A stretch of DNA of 32,159 nucleotides from Deltaproteobacteria bacterium. Its GTDB lineage: Bacteria > Desulfobacterota > Syntrophobacteria > Syntrophobacterales > Syntrophobacteraceae. The notes beneath the pieces were generated by a model. It was not told the DNA's origin and ran no database searches. It worked only from the letters and a program-made list of their open reading frames with translations. The position numbers and the translations under genes were made by a program. Below, piece after piece: positions 7,930-21,947 of this stretch; the first letter of the stretch is position 1, and every line of letters starts with the position of its first letter. The DNA lies in the NCBI GenBank assembly GCA_021793275.1, contig JAJYTC010000036.1, forward strand, positions 1 to 32,159, in the 5' to 3' direction.

Positions 7930-9858
7930 ATGGCTAAAGCAGTGGGAATTGATCTGGGTACTACCAACTCGGTCGCAGCAATCTGGGAGGAAGGAAAATC
8001 CACTGTCATCCCGAACGCCGAAGGATCCCGGCTGACACCATCGGTGGTGGCTTATACGCAGGATGGACAACGGCTGGTCGGACAGGTTGCAAGACGTCAG
8101 GCGATACTCAACCCGACGGCTACAATATATTCCGCAAAGAGGTTCATAGGCAGGAAGTGGGGTGAGGTGGACGAAGAGTCCAAGATAGTGTCCTATAAGG
8201 TGGTAAAAGGGCAAAGCGACGCGGTTCGCTTCGAGATTGGCGGCAAGCAGGTTTCTCCGGAGGAGGTCTCGGCCCTTGTGCTGCGCAAACTGGCCGAAGA
8301 CGCCTCGAAATATCTGGGAGAGAAGGTTAAAGAGGTAGTCATTACCTGCCCGGCGTATTTCAACGATGCCCAGCGCCAGGCGACGAAAAACGCCGGCGAA
8401 ATCGCGGGGCTCAAAGTACTGCGGGTCATAAACGAACCGACCGCCGCAGCCCTTGCCTACGGGATCGAAAAGAAAAAGAACGAGACCGTCATGGTCTTCG
8501 ACCTTGGGGGTGGCACGTTCGACGTTTCGATCCTCGACATCGGGGACGGAGTGGCTGAAGTCAGGGCGACCTCGGGTGATACGCATCTTGGCGGCGATGA
8601 TTTCGACAAAAAGGTCGTCGATTATATCGCCGAGGAGTTCCGAAAGGACAACGGCATCGAGCTTAGAGACGACCGCCAAGCCCTTCAGAGACTCTACGAG
8701 GCGGCGGAAAAAGCCAAGATCGAACTCTCGAGCACTTCCGAGACCCAGATCAATTTACCCTTTATCACTGCCGACGCCAGTGGGCCGAAGCATCTTGTCC
8801 TCAAGCTCACGCGGGCAAAATTCGAGGCCTTGACCCATGACCTCGTGCAGCGCTGCATGGGCCCGGTAAAGCAGGCATTGTCGGATGCGCGCCTAAGCGA
8901 AAAGGACGTAGATGAAGTCATACTGGTTGGCGGATCGACCCGCATCCCGGCGGTGCAGGAACTGGTGAGGAAGCTCACGGGCGGAAAAGAACCGAACATG
9001 AGCGTCAATCCCGACGAGGTTGTCGCGGTGGGCGCCTCGATCCAGGCAGCGGTGCTGAAGGGCGAGGTCGAGGATGTGGTGTTGCTCGACGTAACCCCGC
9101 TTTCGCTCGGGGTGGAAACGTTGGGTGGCGTCATGACCAAACTGATCGAAAGAAACACAACCATACCCGCGAGGCGCGAGGAAATATTTTCGACCGCCGA
9201 GGATGAGCAGACTGCGGTCGATGTAGTGGTGCTTCAGGGAGAGCGCGAGATGGCGAAGGACAACCGCGTTCTCGGCAGGTTCCGACTCGAGGGGATCCGC
9301 CAGGCGCCCCGCGGAATTCCGCAGATCAAGGTAACCTTCGATATCGACGCAAACGGAATTTTGAGCGTTACGGCGCGCGATCAGGAAACAGGGAAAGAAC
9401 AGGCCGTAACGATTTCGGAGTCCACCAATCTTTCGAAGGAAGAGGTGGACAAAATGGTGAGCGACTCCCGGGCCCACGCCGCTGAAGACAAGAACCGGCG
9501 CGAGACTGTCGAGGCGCGCAATACCGCGGACACTCTGGCCTACCAGCTGGAGCGCTCGCTGCGCGAACTTGGCGATAAGATCCCGGTGAATGAAAAAGCC
9601 AGGTCGGAAGCCCTGATCGAAGAGACCCGGAAGGCCGTTGAGGATGAGAGCACGATCCTGGAACGGTTCCGAGAGCTTGCAAGCGATCTGCGGCAGGCCT
9701 CGCAGATGATCGCTTCCACAGCCTATCGCCAGACCGAGGCAAGGGGCCGAGAGCGCGAATTCGAGGCCGGCGGCGGACATTATTCGCAGGGAGGATACGG
9801 ACCGCGTCCCGGCGGTGGCGGCGATGATGTAATCGACGCCGAATTCACCGAGCATTGA
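7930..9858 (+). CDS. dnaK: Molecular chaperone DnaK (Hsp70)
   Basis: ATP-driven Hsp70 that binds exposed hydrophobic segments and passes aggregated clients to ClpB; 642 residues, standard length. The N-terminal ATPase has the phosphate-1 loop GIDLGTTNS at ~6-14, the conserved [12 protein letters not shown], the phosphate-2 loop [10 protein letters not shown] and the adenosine motif [11 protein letters not shown]. The linker [14 protein letters not shown] joins the substrate-binding domain and helical lid. The end is the canonical acidic [11 protein letters not shown] after a Gly-rich stretch. GGGGAGGG precedes the ATG at good distance. It heads a cluster with a J-protein and clpB and lies under a CIRCE-like site. 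No grpE is present in the cluster. This may be one of several dnaK copies in the genome. Confidence 0.97.
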
Positions 9859-10048
9859 CAGGCACACTATCTCACGGTAAAGATAGGAAAAAAAGGGATA
9901 GCGGCGTCCATTGCCGCCAACGCGAGGCGATGTGACGGGTCTGATTTTTTGTGCGCCTCTTAAGCTTTCGTTACCTTTGTGCGCAGGCGCCAGGTCCGTT
10001 TTCACCGGATTGCGCTGCAATTAAATTGAAGGGGCGTGTCGTTGCTTT

Positions 10049-11050
10049 ATGGCTGTCAAATACAGAGACTACTACGAAATACTTGGAGTCAAGAGGTCGG
10101 TCGGCCAGGACGAGATCCAGCGGGCGTACAGGAAACTTGCGCGCAAATACCACCCGGACGTCAACAAGGCCTCAAATGCCGAAGACAAATTCAAGGAAAT
10201 AAACGAGGCCTACGAGGTCCTGAAAGATCCCGAAAAGAGAAAAATGTACGATCAATTGGGATCGAACTGGAGGGCCGGTCAGGATTTCAGGCCTCCTCCG
10301 GGATGGCAGGCCCGTGATTTCGGCCAGGGCGGCGGCGGCGCTTACCAGACTGAATTTCACTGGGGCGGCGGCGGCCCCGGCGGTGGCGGGTTCAGCGACT
10401 TTTTCGAATCCCTGTTTGGAGGCATGGGTTTCAGGCAGGCCCGTGGCGGGGCTGGGCCGGGAGGTTTCGGACGCGGAGGGGTGCTTCGCCAGGCCGGGGC
10501 CGACCAGGAGACCTCCATTCGGATCTCTTTGGAAGAGGCTTTTCACGGCGGCGCCAAGCCCATCGTGCTCCAGAGCAGGACGGTAAGCCCCCAGGGCCAG
10601 TTGGAGGTCAAGGAAAAACGCTATGATGTGAAAATTCCGGCCGGCATTTTGCCCGACCAGAAGATTCGTCTTTCGGGGCAGGGTGAAGAGGGGACAGGCG
10701 GCGGCCCGAGGGGCGACCTGTATCTGAAGGTGGAAATCGAGCCGCACCCGGTTTTTCGCCTCAATGGACGCGACATCACGATGGACCTTCCGATTGCGCC
10801 CTGGGAAGCGGTGCTTGGCACAGAAGTGCGGGTGTCCGCGCTTTCAGGCGGTATAGACCTCAAAATTCCGCCCGGTACCCAGGGCGGCCGGAAACTGCGG
10901 CTGCGGGGCAAAGGGATGCCGAATCCGAAAGGAACGGCCGGAGATTTGTACATAACGATCATGGTCAAAGTTCCAACGCATCCTTCCAAGAAGGAACTGG
11001 AACTGTTCGAGGAATTGAAGAAAAGCTCGAAGTTCGATCCAAGAGCTTAA
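10049..11050 (+). CDS. cbpA: DnaJ-family co-chaperone, CbpA type (no zinc finger)
   Basis: Hsp70 co-chaperone that stimulates DnaK ATPase and delivers substrates; 333 residues. The J-domain covers ~1-72 with the essential HPD at 35-37. A Gly/Phe-rich linker follows at about 85-160 (GGGGPGGGGFSDFFESLFGG). Two beta-sandwich client-binding domains complete the C-terminus (e.g. VKIPAGILPDQKIRLSGQGEEG and IPPGTQGGRKLRLRGKGMP). The four CxxCxGxG zinc repeats of classical DnaJ are absent, so this is the class B/CbpA type. It follows dnaK by 190 nt. That gap contains no gene and only a weak hairpin (GCGGC/GCCGC). In many genomes a small MerR-like modulator follows this gene type; here only a short remnant-like stretch does. 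Confidence 0.93.
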   Translation: MAVKYRDYYEILGVKRSVGQDEIQRAYRKLARKYHPDVNKASNAEDKFKEINEAYEVLKDPEKRKMYDQLGSNWRAGQDFRPPPGWQARDFGQGGGGAYQTEFHWGGGGPGGGGFSDFFESLFGGMGFRQARGGAGPGGFGRGGVLRQAGADQETSIRISLEEAFHGGAKPIVLQSRTVSPQGQLEVKEKRYDVKIPAGILPDQKIRLSGQGEEGTGGGPRGDLYLKVEIEPHPVFRLNGRDITMDLPIAPWEAVLGTEVRVSALSGGIDLKIPPGTQGGRKLRLRGKGMPNPKGTAGDLYITIMVKVPTHPSKKELELFEELKKSSKFDPRA

Positions 11051-11169
11051 GGCTGCGGGAGTTATAGCCGGCATGTCTGAAAGACGTTTCTTCGATCGAG
11101 GCGCTTGAAAGCCGGGTGAGAGAGCTTGAAAACGCGAGGTCTCGTGAATCGTCGGTGAGCATTGAATAA
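11047..11169 (+). pseudogene. Possible remnant of a MerR/CbpM-like regulator tail
   Basis: In the frame starting at 11047 the sequence reads LRLREL, then a TAG stop at 11065, then PAC and LKDVSSIEALESRVRELE, ending at TAA 11167-11169. This pattern (RLREL..., LKDV, then a coiled-coil helix) is like the end of the DNA-binding domain and the dimerisation helix of MerR-type proteins. A CbpM/HspR-like MerR gene often sits directly after cbpA-type dnaJ. There is no proper start codon and the recognition-helix half is missing. I infer a decayed or deleted modulator gene; chance similarity of a short frame remains possible. Confidence 0.4.
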
Positions 11170-11223
11170 AAAAACGAGGCGGACGAGTTTTTCGTGTGCG
11201 CCGCCTTTGAAGGACTTTTCTCT

Positions 11224-13854
11224 ATGGATATCAACAAATTCACGACCAAGTCTCAGGAAGCCTTGCAGGCCGCGGAAACCAAGGCGATCCGCTTCGGCCA
11301 TATCGAGGTCGACGGCGAGCATCTTCTGCTGGCGTTGCTGGAACAGCCCGACGGGCTGGCGACGCGGCTTTTCAAAAAGATGGACATTCCCTTGGAGAGC
11401 ATGCGGCAACGGCTGGAAGAGGGGCTTAACAGGAAACCACGCGTCAGCGGACCAGGGGTCGAACCGGGCAAAATCTACATAACCAACCGTTTGAACCGGC
11501 TTCTTACCGAAGCGCAAGAGCAGGCCAAAAGGCTAAAGGATGAATACGTATCGGTAGAACACATCCTGCTTGCTTTCCTCCAGGAGGGAACGAGCACTCC
11601 CGCCGGCCAGACGCTCCAGCAATTCGGAGTGACGAGGGACTCGCTTCTTAAGACCCTCACCTCTATTCGCGGAAGCCAGCGGGTAACAAGCGCAACGCCC
11701 GAATCCGCCTACGAGGCGCTTCAGAAATACGGGCGCGATCTGGTCGACGAGGCGCGAAGCCAGAAGCTCGACCCGGTCATCGGCAGGGATTCCGAAATAC
11801 GGCGCGTTATCCGCATTCTCAGCCGCAAGACCAAGAACAACCCGGTGCTCATAGGCGAGCCGGGAGTCGGCAAAACCGCCATCGTGGAGGGTCTGGCTCA
11901 TCGCATTGTCAGGGGCGACGTTCCCGAAGGGCTGAAGGATAAGACCATCTTCGCGCTGGATATGGGGTCTTTGGTCGCGGGGGCGAAGTTTCGGGGCGAA
12001 TTCGAAGAGAGGCTGAAAGCGGTTTTAAACGAGATAAAGGAAGCCCAGGGCAGGATTTTGCTCTTCATCGACGAGCTGCACACAATAGTTGGCGCGGGGA
12101 AAGCCGAAGGCTCCATGGACGCCGGCAACATGCTAAAACCCATGCTTGCCCGGGGTGAGCTGCATTGCATAGGCGCGACCACGCTGGACGAATACCGCAA
12201 GCACATCGAAAAAGATGCGGCCCTGGAGCGGCGTTTTCAGCCGGTGGTCGTCGATCAGCCCACGGTCGAAGACACGATTTCCATACTGCGTGGCTTAAGA
12301 GAACGCTTCGAGGTCCATCACGGCGTTAAAATCCAGGACATCGCCATGGTTGCCGCCGCGGTGCTCTCCAACCGCTACATCTCCGACCGTTTTCTGCCCG
12401 ACAAGGCAATCGACCTGGTCGATGAAGCCTGCGCCATGATCAGGACGGAAATCGATTCGATGCCCTCCGAACTCGACGAAGTGGAAAGACGGGCGAGACA
12501 GCTTGAAATCGAGGAGGTGGCGCTCGCCAAGGAGCAGGATAAGGCCAGCAGGGAAAGACTCCAGGCGTTGCGGAAGGAACTGGCCGAGCTGCGGGATAAG
12601 GCCGATTCGATGAAAGTCCAGTGGGAGGCCGAAAAGGAGTCGATCAAGAAAGTACAGGCCCATAGAGGGGAGATTGAAAAGGTCCGTCACGAAATCGAAG
12701 CCTCCGAGCGTGAATTCAACCTGCAGAGAACCGCCGAATTGAAATACGGCGTGCTCCCCGAGCTCGAAAAGAAGCTGCGGGAGGAGGAAGAAAGGCTCTC
12801 GAACAGGCAGGGGGGCTCGCGCCTCCTTCGCGAAATGGTGACCGAGGAAGAAATAGCCGATATCGTGTCGCGCTGGACCGGCATTCCGGTAACCAGGCTG
12901 GTTGAAGGAGAAAGGGAAAAGCTGCTGAGGCTCGACGAAGTGCTGCACAAGCGGGTTATAGGCCAGGATGAAGCCGTTCAGCTCGTTGCAAACGCGGTTA
13001 TACGCGCCCGGTCGGGAATAAAAGACCCCAGGCGCCCGATCGGCTCTTTCATCTTTCTCGGTCCGACCGGCGTTGGCAAAACGGAGCTTGGGAAAACCCT
13101 GGCGGAAGCCCTCTTCGATACCGAAGAAAACCTGGTGCGGATCGATATGAGCGAGTACCAGGAACGCCACACGGTTTCCCGCCTGATCGGGGCGCCTCCC
13201 GGCTATATCGGATACGAAGAAGGAGGACAACTGACGGAGGCCGTGCGCCGAAAGCCGTATTCGGTTATCCTGTTCGACGAAATCGAAAAGGCCCACAGGG
13301 ACGTCTTCAATACGCTTCTCCAAATCCTGGACGACGGCAGGCTGACCGACTCCCAGGGGCGAACGGTCGATTTCAAGAACACGGTGATAATCATGACGAG
13401 CAATATCGGTTCGGAATACCTTCTCCAGGGGGTTACGAAGGAAGGAGAAATCCGCGAAGACGCAAGGTCGAGCGTAATGGGCGCCCTGAGGCATCATTTT
13501 ATGCCGGAATTTCTGAACAGGGTCGATGAAATTATAATGTTCAAGCCGCTGACTCTAGGCGAGATAGAGAAGATCGTCGATCTTCTCGCGGGAGATTTGA
13601 ACCGGCGGCTCAAAACGAGGCGCCTCACGCTGCGCCTGAGCGACCAGGCGCGCGAGTTCATCGCCAAGGCCGGCTACGATCCGGTCTACGGCGCAAGACC
13701 TCTTAAGCGGTTCATGCAGCGGGAAGTGGAAACCAGGATAGGCCGGGCCATAATAGCCGGGGCAATCATGGACGGTTCCACCATAACCGTCGACTCGACG
13801 GACGGCGAACTCGTGGTGACGCATGCCGCCGAGCCGGAGGCGGTTGAAGTGTAA
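11224..13854 (+). CDS. clpB: ATP-dependent disaggregase ClpB (Hsp100)
   Basis: Hexameric AAA+ machine that pulls proteins out of aggregates together with DnaK/DnaJ; 876 residues from the chosen start. The N-terminal Clp domain has two repeats (~1-145). The first AAA+ module has Walker A GEPGVGKT at ~211-218 and Walker [11 protein letters not shown] coiled-coil middle domain typical of ClpB (not ClpA/ClpC) spans about 400-520. The second AAA+ module has Walker A GPTGVGKT at ~613-620, then [10 protein letters not shown]. The C-terminal D2-small domain is intact. A longer frame begins at a GTG at 11194, but the ATG at 11224 has AAGGA 9 nt upstream and begins at the conserved [14 protein letters not shown]. 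It probably shares the heat-shock regulation of dnaK. Confidence 0.97.
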
Positions 13855-13926: not shown

Positions 13927-14469
13927 ATGGCTGAAATAAAGAGCACTCTCGAACTGGTAATGGAGAGGACACAGCACCTTCACATGACCGAGGAAGACAA
14001 GCGAAGGCAAGCTGACGAGGAATTTACGGAGGCCGTTTGCAGGCTCGTGTCTAAACGGTTGGACGGGCAGATCGGCATGGACAGGTTTAAGACCGAGTTG
14101 AACCGGCTTAGCGAAATGGACGGCGCCTGCCAAATGCGCGCAGCCGTCGAGATTTTAAGAAGGATCGATCCCCTCACCGATAACTCTCCCCTGTTGGATT
14201 TAATGGAACACGGCCTTGGCCTCGACATTTCCAGCATCGAGGCGGCATTGAAACAGTTCGGCGAGCGGCTCCATAGCGAACAAGACCGGGCGGTCGAGCG
14301 AACCAGGGCCGATCTGTTCAAAAAAGGAGTCTCGGGCGGCGCTGTTATTCCCAACGTCGAAGCGGACGCGGAGTGGCAAGAGAAGCGAAGGCAAATGCTC
14401 GAAACCGTAAAAGAGGAACTGGCCCCGGACTTGGTCCGGGGCCGGGCGGGAACTCGTTACTGGCCCTGA
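13927..14469 (+). CDS. Unknown protein, 180 residues, downstream of clpB
   Basis: I do not recognise the family. The protein is highly charged and predicted almost wholly alpha-helical, without signal peptide or membrane segments. The first ~150 residues are rich in Glu/Arg/Lys with heptad-like hydrophobics. The end includes the WQEKRRQMLETVKEELAPDL helix. It starts 72 nt after clpB with GGACGG before the ATG, and a GCGGGG/CCCCGC hairpin lies between the two genes. Its last codons overlap the convergent lipoprotein gene by 13 nt and contain a strong hairpin at 14421-14443, so the true C-terminus could have been altered by that element. Position suggests, but does not show, a link to the chaperone cluster. 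Confidence 0.75.
   Translation: MAEIKSTLELVMERTQHLHMTEEDKRRQADEEFTEAVCRLVSKRLDGQIGMDRFKTELNRLSEMDGACQMRAAVEILRRIDPLTDNSPLLDLMEHGLGLDISSIEAALKQFGERLHSEQDRAVERTRADLFKKGVSGGAVIPNVEADAEWQEKRRQMLETVKEELAPDLVRGRAGTRYWP
14421..14443. terminator. 10-bp perfect hairpin at convergent gene ends
   Basis: GGCCCCGGAC (14421-14430) and GTCCGGGGCC (14434-14443) flank a 3-nt loop. It lies inside the last codons of the plus-strand gene and 13 nt beyond the stop of the minus-strand lipoprotein gene. There is no direct T run, so it is a hairpin of terminator or RNA-end-stabilising type rather than a classical intrinsic terminator. Confidence 0.5.
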
Positions 14470-18107: not shown

Positions 18108-18533
18108 TTACGGAAGCGAACTCTGGGGCATTGCCAGGTGGCCCTTGAGTTCATCGGTTTCCATTGTCCATTGATAGCCGACCCTTGCGGCAACATTGAA
18201 AAGGAGCGGACTTTTTACATGGAAATGTATGGCTTTGGTTTCCCGATCGAACGAGACTATATTGAGGACTACCAAATCTTCGTCTCGTTCCAGACCGATC
18301 AGCTTTTTCTTCGCATCCGGCGCCGAGTACACCATTCCCAGGTAATCCGGGGAGCAGACCACAAAAGCAACGCCGGGTTCCTCCACCGACTGGAGCCACT
18401 GGAAAGGACCGTTTTTATATTCCAGCAGGACAAAGCTTTTCAGATTTTCAAAGCCGGGAATTCCCCAGGGAAAGGTGATAAGTTCTTTTTCCTCTATTTG
18501 TATCGTTCCAAAACGGGTGGTCTTAACCTGCAT
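18108..18533 (-). CDS. fliW: Flagellar assembly factor FliW
   Basis: Protein antagonist of CsrA: it binds CsrA allosterically and, in flagellated bacteria, is titrated by flagellin so that flagellin translation follows export. It is 141 residues, near the usual ~150. Family features visible: the N-terminal TTRFGTIQIEEKELITFPWGIPGFE, the central FVVCSPDYLG, and the late beta strands with ETKAIHFHVKSPLLFN. GAGGAG sits 5 nt before the ATG. It lies 37 nt downstream of csrA on the same strand, the classic csrA-fliW pair. No flagellin or other flagellar gene is in the window. Confidence 0.95.
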   Translation of the reverse strand: MQVKTTRFGTIQIEEKELITFPWGIPGFENLKSFVLLEYKNGPFQWLQSVEEPGVAFVVCSPDYLGMVYSAPDAKKKLIGLERDEDLVVLNIVSFDRETKAIHFHVKSPLLFNVAARVGYQWTMETDELKGHLAMPQSSLP

Positions 18534-18570: not shown

Positions 18571-18813
18571 TTAGCCCCCCTGCCGACTGCCGGTATACGT
18601 GTCGAGCAGATTTTCGAACTCCTCCTTACCGATAAGCGCCGCAGCCCGGTTCTCCTTTTGGATTCTCCGGTACAGCTCTTCCCTGTAAATAGGGACGTGC
18701 GCAGGGCTCTTTATTCCCACCCGCACCTTGTTCTGATCGATCGAGGTTATCGTTACCTCTATATCCTCGCCGATCAGAATCGACTCGCCCGTTTTTCTGG
18801 TCAGTATGAGCAT
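18571..18813 (-). CDS. csrA: Carbon storage regulator CsrA
   Basis: Small RNA-binding protein that represses or stabilises target mRNAs by binding GGA-containing sites. It is 80 residues from the ATG at 18811-18813, starting MLILTRKTGESI, the family's invariant first strand. The RNA-binding residues L4 and R44 (within YREELYRRI) are present. The C-terminus is ~15-20 residues longer than E. coli CsrA, as is common in FliW-regulated CsrA proteins, where that extension helps FliW binding. The open frame continues 11 codons upstream without homology. AAGGCGG is about 8 nt before the ATG. Confidence 0.95.
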   Translation of the reverse strand: MLILTRKTGESILIGEDIEVTITSIDQNKVRVGIKSPAHVPIYREELYRRIQKENRAAALIGKEEFENLLDTYTGSRQGG

Positions 18814-18903
18814 TGGGTTTTCCGCCTTCAAAATATTATCGGTCACCTGGACCGTTTGCTTTAATTTTTCGTGGCCCTACCACTGCGGAACGACACTGTT
18901 TGG

Positions 18904-18998: not shown

Positions 18999-20162
18999 AT
19001 GGCGCCCGAAGTTCATTTGGACGACGATTTTCGAGCACTTGGACTTGAACCGGGGGCCGAAGCCTCCGAGGTGAAACGGGCCTATCGGACGCTCGTCAAG
19101 AAGTGGCATCCGGACCGCCATCAATTGGAACCCTACGAATCCCGAGTATTAGCGGAAGAAAAGTTCAGGGAAATTGACGAAGCCTACCGGCGCATCTCGA
19201 AGAACCGGGGGAAAACCTCGCCATTTCGGCGCCCCGCCAGCGGGGATTTCAGCGCGGCAAGACCTGCCGCCCCGAAGCCCCGGACAGCCTTTCGTGTCAA
19301 CCGCCGACCCGGCGCCGGCGTCCGTTTGTTTACCCGAACATGGCGGGTGCAGCCCGCCACTTTGTCCCTGGCTTTGGCGGCATTTATCCTGGTCCTGCTC
19401 TTTCCGCTCCTTTTGGACATCGGTACTTACCGGCCTGTTCGCGTGCAGAAAAAGGCAAAACACCATCCGCCGATAGACGAGACTCATGCCCCGGCGCGAC
19501 CGCAAACGGCCCTGCCCGCCCGCGCTCCGCACCCTGCCCTGCCAAAATCCGGGCCGGCTGCGGCCGTGCATTTTTTCACCCTTGGATCGAGCGCTTTTCA
19601 AGTGCTGCAGGTCCAGGGAAGGCCGGGGCGAATGCTGGGCGACACCTGGATTTACGGGCTTTCAGACGTGCGTTTCAAGAACGGACGGGTGTGTGGATAC
19701 GACAATTTCGGCGGATCGCTGCGGGTGAGAATACTGCCCGGGGCTCACAAAGGGTCTTACCCGCATCACATTACCATCGGGTCAACCAAGCAGCAGGTCC
19801 TGCTGGTCCAGGGGACCCCTGCGCGAGTCGCAGGAAACCGCTGGTACTATGGCTTTGCCGAGCTTATCTTCATGAACGGACTTGTCACGGGATACGACAA
19901 CTACTTCGGGACCCTGAAAATGCGCCTCCTTCCTTCCACTCCGAGCGGCCACGGAAAACGCGCATCTTTTTTCACCAAGGGTTCGACTCCTGACGAGGTG
20001 CTTGCCGCTCAGGGGACGCCCACGGCGGTTCATGGCAACCGCTGGTCCTATAATTTCGACTACGTATTCTTTCGGGACGGCAAGGTGAGCGGAGTCCTCG
20101 ATGCCGATGGGGCGCTCAACTTCGCAAACCCTGCAAAATCCGGTCTTGCGGACAAACCGTGA
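18999..20162 (+). CDS. Membrane-anchored J-domain protein with three extracytoplasmic repeats
   Basis: 387 residues. The N-terminal J-domain (~9-70) has the intact HPD at 37-39, so it should stimulate an Hsp70. A basic, Pro/Ala-rich linker leads to one strong membrane segment at ~119-139 (TLSLALAAFILVLLFPLLLD), followed by a Pro/Ala-rich stalk. Three tandem repeats of ~65 residues fill the C-terminus (~191-247, 257-313, 323-375). Each has the pattern T.GS....VL..QG.P....G..W.Y....V.F..G.V.G. This pattern is like the BamE/SmpA-type fold (G....V...G.P, then W.Y and F..G.V). With positive residues before the membrane segment, the J-domain would be cytoplasmic and the repeats periplasmic. The partner Hsp70 is unknown. 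It is divergent from csrA. The architecture is clear; the biological role is not. Confidence 0.85.
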   Translation: MAPEVHLDDDFRALGLEPGAEASEVKRAYRTLVKKWHPDRHQLEPYESRVLAEEKFREIDEAYRRISKNRGKTSPFRRPASGDFSAARPAAPKPRTAFRVNRRPGAGVRLFTRTWRVQPATLSLALAAFILVLLFPLLLDIGTYRPVRVQKKAKHHPPIDETHAPARPQTALPARAPHPALPKSGPAAAVHFFTLGSSAFQVLQVQGRPGRMLGDTWIYGLSDVRFKNGRVCGYDNFGGSLRVRILPGAHKGSYPHHITIGSTKQQVLLVQGTPARVAGNRWYYGFAELIFMNGLVTGYDNYFGTLKMRLLPSTPSGHGKRASFFTKGSTPDEVLAAQGTPTAVHGNRWSYNFDYVFFRDGKVSGVLDADGALNFANPAKSGLADKP

Positions 20163-20234: not shown

Positions 20235-21947
20235 ATGATTATGGACAAAATTTACAGGGGTGAGTTCGACCCCGAACTTATCCGGGTCGGTCCTCCGAGC
20301 ATGGACGAAGCCAGGGTGGGCATGATCGTCGACCGGTACCGGGAGCTTTTGAAAGATTACCCGCCCGCCAGACTGGAAACCGACGGCGCCCTGCCTGCAG
20401 AACTCCTTCGTAAAATGGGCGACAGCGGCTTTTTCGGCCTCACCATCGATACCGAATACGGGGGCCTGGGCTTCAACCTGTGCGAATATTTAAAAGTGGT
20501 CGAGGAAATCGCCAGGCTGGATATCCCGGTCGCCTTCACGTTCCTTGCGCACCTTTCCATAGGAATAAAAGCGATCCAGCTTTTCGGAAACGAGGACCAG
20601 AAACGCAAATACCTGACCCGGGCGGCATCCGGGGAGATGATCTTCGCCTTCGCCCTGACCGAACCACGCATCGGCTCGGATGCCCAGCATATCGAAACAA
20701 CGGCGGTGCTGAGCGAAGATGAAACCCATTACGTGCTGAACGGTAAAAAGACCTATATTACGAACGCCAATTACGCAGGCGGTATGACCGTTTTTGCGCA
20801 GCTCGATCCCAAGGAACCCGGGTACATCGGGGCGTTCATAGTCGAAACCGACCGGGAGGGGGTGCAGGTAGGCAAAGACATGCCCAAAATGGGCCTGACG
20901 GCAAGCTCGACGGCTGCCGTCCAGTTCAGGAACGTGCGCATTCCGAAGGAAAACCTCATCGGGGCGCCGGGCGAGGGTTTCAAAATGGCCATGACCGTGC
21001 TCAATTTTGGCAGGCTGAGTTTGGGCGCCTCTTCTGCGTCATTGATGCGCGTCTCGGCCAGGGAGATGCTAAAGAGAGCTTCTTCGCGGATCCAGTTCCA
21101 GGTCCCGATCAGCAGCTTTCAGTTGATCCAGGAAAAGATCGTGCGCGCCCGGGTCAACGAGGCGGTCAGCTCCGCCATGAACAGCCTGGCTGCCGTGATT
21201 CTCCAGGACCAACCGTTTCTTCGCACGGCAATCGAAACTTCTCACTGCAAGCTATTCGGCACAACTCGGGCGTGGGACGCGGTCTATGACGCTCTACAGA
21301 CCGCAGGCGGCGCGGGCTACCTCAAAACCATGCCCTATGAAAAATGGATGCGCGACGTACGGGTGACGACGGTATTCGAAGGCACAACCGAGGTGCATTC
21401 AGTCTATCCGGCCCTTTGGGGCATGCGCATGATCGGCAAATCACTCAAAGAATCGGGGCGCTCTTACCTGTCGCTCGCCCCGGAGCTGCTAAAGCTCCTC
21501 GTAAAAGGCCTGAAATGGCCCTTTTTCTATGAAAACAGCATAATGCAGAAAGGGCTTCGCGAGGCGAAAAGATGCGCAAAAGCCACCAGGGTCCTTCTCC
21601 TGGGCGGGCTACTGGTCTACGGCAGGAAAATGGCGCACGGTAAAACGGCGAACAGGGAATTCCTGTTCCGCCGCATAACCACTCTTTCTCTTTATACTTT
21701 CGGGCTCCTCGCCCTGCTTCGCCAAACGGATATAAAGCGCAAAGCCGGCGCCATCGAGGCAGAGGACCTGCACATACTGCAATATTTCACCGCTGAAGCA
21801 AAACAGGCGCGTAAAAGCAACAGAAGGCTTTTCGATTCCAGGAACGAAAGGATGAATACCGCCCTGTTTCGAGAATATTCCAAATCGCAGTCTAACGGCG
21901 GAGAGCAAACAAGTCCCGAAGATCGGTCGACCACGGGCGATAAGTGA
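20235..21947 (+). CDS. Acyl-CoA dehydrogenase, long form
   Basis: FAD-dependent alpha,beta-dehydrogenation of an acyl-CoA (beta-oxidation), with electrons passing to ETF. It is 570 residues, longer than the ~380 of short/medium-chain enzymes; the extra ~170 C-terminal residues resemble the VLCAD-like group. Conserved parts: GFFGLTIDTEYGGLG, the FAD-contact segment FALTEPRIGSDA, NGKKTYITNA, and RDVRVTTVFEGTTEVHS, where E382 fits the catalytic base. The C-terminal extension is helical and basic (LLLGGLLVYGRKMAHGK), possibly membrane-associated. GAGAGGGG precedes the ATG at 20235; a second ATG lies two codons later. The chain-length preference cannot be read from sequence. Confidence 0.92.
   Translation: MIMDKIYRGEFDPELIRVGPPSMDEARVGMIVDRYRELLKDYPPARLETDGALPAELLRKMGDSGFFGLTIDTEYGGLGFNLCEYLKVVEEIARLDIPVAFTFLAHLSIGIKAIQLFGNEDQKRKYLTRAASGEMIFAFALTEPRIGSDAQHIETTAVLSEDETHYVLNGKKTYITNANYAGGMTVFAQLDPKEPGYIGAFIVETDREGVQVGKDMPKMGLTASSTAAVQFRNVRIPKENLIGAPGEGFKMAMTVLNFGRLSLGASSASLMRVSAREMLKRASSRIQFQVPISSFQLIQEKIVRARVNEAVSSAMNSLAAVILQDQPFLRTAIETSHCKLFGTTRAWDAVYDALQTAGGAGYLKTMPYEKWMRDVRVTTVFEGTTEVHSVYPALWGMRMIGKSLKESGRSYLSLAPELLKLLVKGLKWPFFYENSIMQKGLREAKRCAKATRVLLLGGLLVYGRKMAHGKTANREFLFRRITTLSLYTFGLLALLRQTDIKRKAGAIEAEDLHILQYFTAEAKQARKSNRRLFDSRNERMNTALFREYSKSQSNGGEQTSPEDRSTTGDK

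Follow-up and report, generated by a model that had tools for sequence, protein, structure and literature searches.

A conserved single-span J-domain protein with three putative BamE/BLIP-type repeats in the Syntrophobacterales

Why would a J-domain protein carry, beyond a single membrane span, an array of three repeated modules? Membrane J-domain proteins are, to our knowledge, few, and how they recognize their clients is poorly understood. The gene that raises the question is an open reading frame with an ATG start and a 387-amino-acid product at 18999..20162 (+ strand) of the window, by which we mean the whole 32,159-nucleotide stretch of DNA analyzed. A first-pass annotation had read it as an HPD J-domain, one span, and three tandem modules, a layout that proved to be real and for which we found no description in the open-access literature searched.

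Layout and conservation of the J-domain gene

The J-domain (residues 9-69; 19023..19205, + strand) scored 49.2 bits against the Pfam DnaJ model, which has a cut-off of 27.8 bits (E = 5.6e-13, match at residues 12-69), and its helices folded at a pLDDT of ~82 in a full-length model. The DnaJ model matched all 32 orthologs, and the HPD motif (residues 37-39; 19107-19115, + strand) is invariant in every one, bearing out the claim that the J-domain is intact. The Pfam search of the window protein and its orthologs returned only DnaJ and BamE; with an HPD J-domain present and the DnaJ_C and zinc-finger domains of classes A and B absent, the protein falls in class C. Because the genome also encodes two full-length Hsp70s and the HPD is invariant, recruitment of an Hsp70 by the J-domain is very probable.

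In the window, dnaK is followed by a DnaJ/CbpA-type gene and then by clpB (7930-13854, + strand), ~5 to 11 kb upstream of the J-domain gene, and right behind clpB is a 180-amino-acid open reading frame without any Pfam match (13927-14469, + strand). A functional link through this dnaK (7930-9858) was considered and discarded as evidence because, among the genomes examined, the presence of an Hsp70 gene within 20 kb of the J-domain gene on the same contig is confined to the genus.

The J-domain is followed by a weakly conserved basic linker (residues 70-118; 19206..19352, + strand; mean pairwise identity 0.14), a predicted transmembrane helix at about residues 119-141 (19353..19421, + strand), and a variable proline-rich linker (residues 142-190; 19422..19568, + strand; mean pairwise identity 0.13, with an ortholog mean proline fraction of 0.19). 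The sole strongly hydrophobic segment is TLSLALAAFILVLLFPLLL, whose mean hydropathy of 2.67 is the peak value and within which the full-length run placed a helix at residues 123-138. The span was found in 32/32 orthologs (lowest hydropathy maximum, 1.47), and no further strongly hydrophobic segment was seen among the orthologs scanned, hydropathy outside the span being at most 0.52.

Full orthologs are present in 32 of the 39 genomes of the order, together with one fragment at a contig end, and all 32 distinct orthologs keep three repeats. An orphan or chance protein is ruled out by this identical layout; no paralogs were found in the gene's own genome. Conservation is concentrated at the two ends, with mean pairwise identities of 0.52 for the J-domain and 0.57 to 0.59 for each repeat versus 0.13 to 0.17 for the linkers and span. 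The dN/dS ratio, a simple Nei-Gojobori estimate, was likewise lower in the J-domain and repeats than in the linkers in four informative close pairs, several of them near saturation; a fifth close pair, with no synonymous change in the J-domain, was left out.

On these sequence features, the protein would be a variant of the membrane-anchored class C J-domain protein whose layout is kept across the order. DjlB and DjlC are also membrane-anchored class C J-domain proteins. They are tail-anchored (PMC8215388) and thus have no large domain past the span, whereas here the span lies in mid-protein, with ~245 residues after it.

The repeats and their resemblance to BamE and BLIP

The repeats occupy residues 191-246 (19569..19736), 257-312 (19767..19934), and 323-378 (19965..20132), all on the + strand. 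Repeats 1 and 2 share 51% identity over 53 residues (BLASTP E = 4e-20) and repeats 2 and 3 share 51% over 41 residues (E = 2e-14), similarities far above chance. The first-pass annotation was right about three tandem copies, but its module size of ~65 residues is closer to the period: the conserved cores are 56 residues each, spaced 65 and 67 residues apart.

In a tree of the repeats, sequences from throughout the order group by position, each of the three forming its own cluster (two label changes, versus a mean of 46 after shuffling), indicating that the triplication predates diversification of the order. In family f59, which lies outside the order, repeats group with others of the family and in part with those of their own protein. 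Two f59 versions (L075:6712-7644 and L074:6415-7403) carry near-identical repeats inside one protein, a sign of recent copying; in L074 the repeat region is also interrupted by a stretch of unknown bases, and its reading frame is broken. Within the order, some positions are conserved mainly in one repeat class, such as N-F-D-G in repeat 1 and D-N-Y-F-G in repeat 2, a pattern compatible with separate contacts for each repeat.

The repeats had been called BamE-like from their letters, and several comparisons bear on that name. The Pfam BamE model (PF04355) matched repeat 2 at residues 258-285 with 26.8 bits, above its curated cut-off of 23.2, although the match spans only model positions 12-42 (31/71) and so falls short of a whole domain; a BamE match at E 0.01 was obtained in 24/32 orthologs. 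A single-repeat profile, which matches repeat 1, gave 22 weak matches to PDB sequences (E 0.011 to 0.96), 20 of which could be assigned to the BamE, OmlA, or OsmE type, either from their names or by our own identification. An hhalign comparison of the repeat profile with the single E. coli BamE sequence was weak (probability 36% over 30 columns).

For structure, AlphaFold was run on residues 186-387 with four homologs. The resulting repeat model is of moderate quality (mean pLDDT 67, pTM 0.39; one of five models folded), and the folded model has a helix and four strands in each repeat. The full-length run, good for the J-domain, left the repeats below pLDDT 50 and was for that reason kept out of the fold search. 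The top Foldseek matches in the PDB to the repeat model were a BLIP-like protein and BamE (5wam_B, probability 1.00). VIA-align placed BamE, OsmE, YjgB, and BLIP at Z 5 to 6, with 2 to 3 Å rmsd over ~50 residues in most of the single-module matches. The BamE matches within this set have rmsd 2.4 to 2.7 Å over ~52 residues, with 5wam_B reaching Z 6.0 over 53 residues on repeat 1 and E. coli BamE (7tsz_E) Z 5.8 over 52 residues on repeat 3; the model is moderate and these values lie under 8, a range in which Z by itself is not decisive.

Because the sequence and structure evidence agree, we accept, with moderate confidence, a BamE/BLIP-type fold for the repeats. Structure prediction, proposed in the first pass as a check of the assignment, placed BamE among the top matches; as the Pfam match is partial and tandem BLIP is also among the closest structures, "BamE-like" describes a probable fold and does not make the repeats BamE proper. 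The likeness to BamE/SmpA/OmlA (PF04355) and OsmE consists in a modeled helix followed by antiparallel strands and in the motif G-T/S-x-x-x-V-x-x-x-x-G-x-P ... W-x-Y. BamE is a single-domain outer-membrane lipoprotein of the BAM complex, whereas here three short tandem modules sit on a predicted inner-membrane span; no N-terminal hydrophobic signal was found, so that by sequence the protein would not be a lipoprotein. We dropped the idea that the repeats are ordinary BamE, given the partial Pfam match and the different anchoring. BLIPs are secreted inhibitors with two modules, and BLIP and BLIP-like proteins resemble the array in carrying tandem modules of related fold in one chain, with matches that cover two repeats (3d4e, 1jtg_B); the two-module superposition has an rmsd of 7 to 10 Å, so the relative arrangement of modules differs from that of BLIP. 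Both BamE and BLIP are protein-binding modules.

We also considered whether the protein replaces BamE. A search of the genome for the BamE family found no member at E 1e-4, but any BamE match was found in only 5/40 relatives, so its absence is general and proves nothing.

Orientation and spread of the repeat module

Net charge at the flanks of the span favors an N-inside orientation in 22/32 orthologs, opposes it in 5, and is tied in 5; over the longer segments, net charge is higher between J-domain and span than between span and repeats in 28 orthologs, with 3 the other way. The window protein, taken alone, is positively charged on either side of the span. Under the positive-inside rule, we infer that the J-domain is cytoplasmic and the repeats are periplasmic, in agreement with the single N-inside span initially proposed.

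The module is sparsely distributed, with the single-repeat profile matching 21/395 genomes of the phylum. The first-pass annotation had suggested looking for the architecture elsewhere, and it is indeed present outside the order: f59 members carry two or three repeats, and three are found in family f12 and in a genome of another phylum (G988, L133:4016-5158, - strand). In family f64, a Ser/Thr kinase takes the place of the J-domain. One such protein (G681, L124:4350-6194, - strand), found with a broader profile, has a kinase, one span, and three repeats, and another (G347) is a kinase-TM-TPR-one-repeat protein. Elsewhere, 4/294 genomes matched in the phylum of a Planctomycetota-labeled locus (L008), to which G988 and the genome G947 described below belong, and TM-helical-three-repeat proteins occur in 2/244 genomes of the phylum of locus L011, which we take to be cyanobacterial. 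We had expected a wide cyanobacterial spread beforehand and found matches in only 2/244 and 2/339 sampled genomes, the same two in both cases. A plasmid protein of Paenibacillus peoriae (L100:2164-3561, + strand) begins with an N-terminal region lacking any match, followed by a span and three repeats of the same family; its gene is near a Spo0E-type gene. Errors in MAG binning could affect single cases in this distribution.

The window protein resembles receptor-type Ser/Thr kinases in its predicted order of a cytoplasmic effector, one span, and tandem repeats outside, and differs from them in having a J-domain rather than a kinase as output. By sequence, the G681 protein would be a receptor-kinase counterpart of the J-protein, with three repeats of the same family. 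Because this repeat family also comes after a kinase span, it looks as though the array is an extracytoplasmic unit that can be exchanged between effectors, and the kinase fusions lend independent support to the order cytoplasm-span-outside. The position of the repeats after the span in the G681 and G347 kinases is likewise what one would expect of a part for extracytoplasmic recognition. More broadly, the module looks to be rare, mobile, and devoted to recognition, usually one span away from a cytoplasmic effector.

One fusion departs from this pattern. In G947 (L135:2231-4585, - strand), a J-domain, a zinc ribbon, one repeat, RDD, trypsin, and PDZ domains are joined in what seems to be an HtrA-like protease attached to a J-domain, and the single repeat comes before any membrane span, on the same side as the J-domain. 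The module is therefore not always outside, and the repeat between the J-domain and zinc ribbon and the first span would suit a reading in which the repeats, like DnaJ_C domains, bind clients on the side of the membrane where the J-domain lies, with the hydrophobic segment a mere anchor. We consider this very improbable for the window protein, as the span separates J-domain from repeats in every J-TM-repeat member read, and kinase from repeats in the kinases that carry them.

The pairing of the array with different cytoplasmic outputs, a kinase with three repeats in G681 and a kinase with TPR in G347, raises another reading, in which the protein is a receptor: an envelope ligand or misfolded protein would cluster or move the J-domains and so change DnaK activity in the cytoplasm, sending a signal inward. 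Regulatory neighbors, namely a divergent csrA and an HDOD-domain gene, are found in most loci of the order and would fit such a role. The kinase fusions, however, come from another family of the phylum, and the unconserved proline-rich linkers offer no obvious route for conformational coupling. We regard an inward signal as a serious alternative that is nonetheless rather unlikely.

Genomic neighborhood and proposed function

In the window, the J-domain gene is divergent from csrA (18571..18846, - strand; Pfam CsrA, 5.4e-24), beyond which lies fliW (18108..18533, - strand; Pfam FliW, 4.3e-25), and it is followed after a 72-base gap by an acyl-CoA dehydrogenase gene with Pfam Acyl-CoA_dh domains (20235..21947, + strand). 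The divergent csrA is kept upstream in 28/31 loci of the order, fliW in 27/31, and an HDOD-domain gene is nearby in 21/31. The acyl-CoA dehydrogenase gene is downstream on the same strand in 18/31, at gaps from -23 to 251, sometimes overlapping the stop codon. This synteny could mean that the protein is a dedicated co-chaperone for a neighbor, either the acyl-CoA dehydrogenase or the CsrA-FliW flagellin circuit. We think this improbable: neither neighbor supplies an evident periplasmic partner for the array, and the loci of G215, G149, G249, and G366 lack the csrA-fliW and acyl-CoA dehydrogenase neighbors. The conserved synteny may be structural.

The G215 locus has a gene order of its own. 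There, a J-TM-three-repeat gene (L073:7091-8092, - strand) lies between dxr and a gene for an rseP-like site-2 protease, all in one direction (the two flanking genes were identified by reading their sequences), which is a hint of an envelope-stress setting. Together with the BamE-type fold of the repeats and the association of Caulobacter crescentus DjlA with AcrA and several outer membrane proteins (PMC10754441), this gene order is what one might expect of a co-chaperone for export or assembly, whose J-domain would gather DnaK at the inner membrane during export and whose periplasmic modules would catch envelope proteins as they emerge, so that chaperone binding takes place on both sides. We consider such a role unlikely, because the loci of the order conserve csrA-fliW, HDOD, and acyl-CoA dehydrogenase genes instead of sec, bam, or lpt genes, to which no links were seen in those loci.

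The closest functional precedent is DjlA, a class C J-domain protein of E. coli that crosses the inner membrane once, has its J-domain in the cytoplasm, cooperates with DnaK, and is tied to envelope signaling: it activates Rcs signaling in a manner that needs its J-domain and DnaK, and it loosens the contact between IgaA and RcsD, an effect that depends on the J-domain (PMC11709261). DjlA has been described as having no specific substrate-binding domain (PMC11709261). It combines a short periplasmic N terminus, a TerB-like domain, and a C-terminal J-domain, whereas in the window protein the J-domain is N-terminal and a conserved array of ~190 residues lies past the span. In keeping with this, the NCBIfam DjlA model matched only at its J part (positions 198-265 of 267) with 37.8 bits, far below its 162-bit cut-off, placing the protein outside the DjlA family. 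By analogy, DjlA would serve as a precedent for an envelope-linked membrane co-chaperone.

The reading we tentatively favor, while holding it as somewhat short of probable, is that the protein is an inner-membrane class C J-protein that tethers DnaK beneath an envelope partner by means of its periplasmic array. The J-domain would lie in the cytoplasm and the three BamE/BLIP-type modules in the periplasm, where the array would most likely bind an envelope partner, probably a protein. The single span and the two long flexible linkers would hold the J-domain close to that partner, so that DnaK would be recruited and its ATPase triggered on cytoplasmic parts of the partner complex or on proteins passing there. 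We prefer tethering to a rigid conformational signal because the linkers are long and unconserved while the domains at both ends are conserved. The data show the anatomy of the protein, its conservation, and the sharing of the array with kinases; orientation, partner binding, DnaK recruitment, and the nature of client and ligand are all inferred in this scheme.

A conserved family with a defined extracytoplasmic array would offer a handle on what draws Hsp70 to the bacterial inner membrane. Should the protein instead act as a receptor, it would represent a bacterial route by which envelope information passes into the chaperone network. That J-proteins and kinases share such an array suggests that receptors of this kind are modular, with a cytoplasmic output that can be a chaperone in place of a phosphorylation signal.
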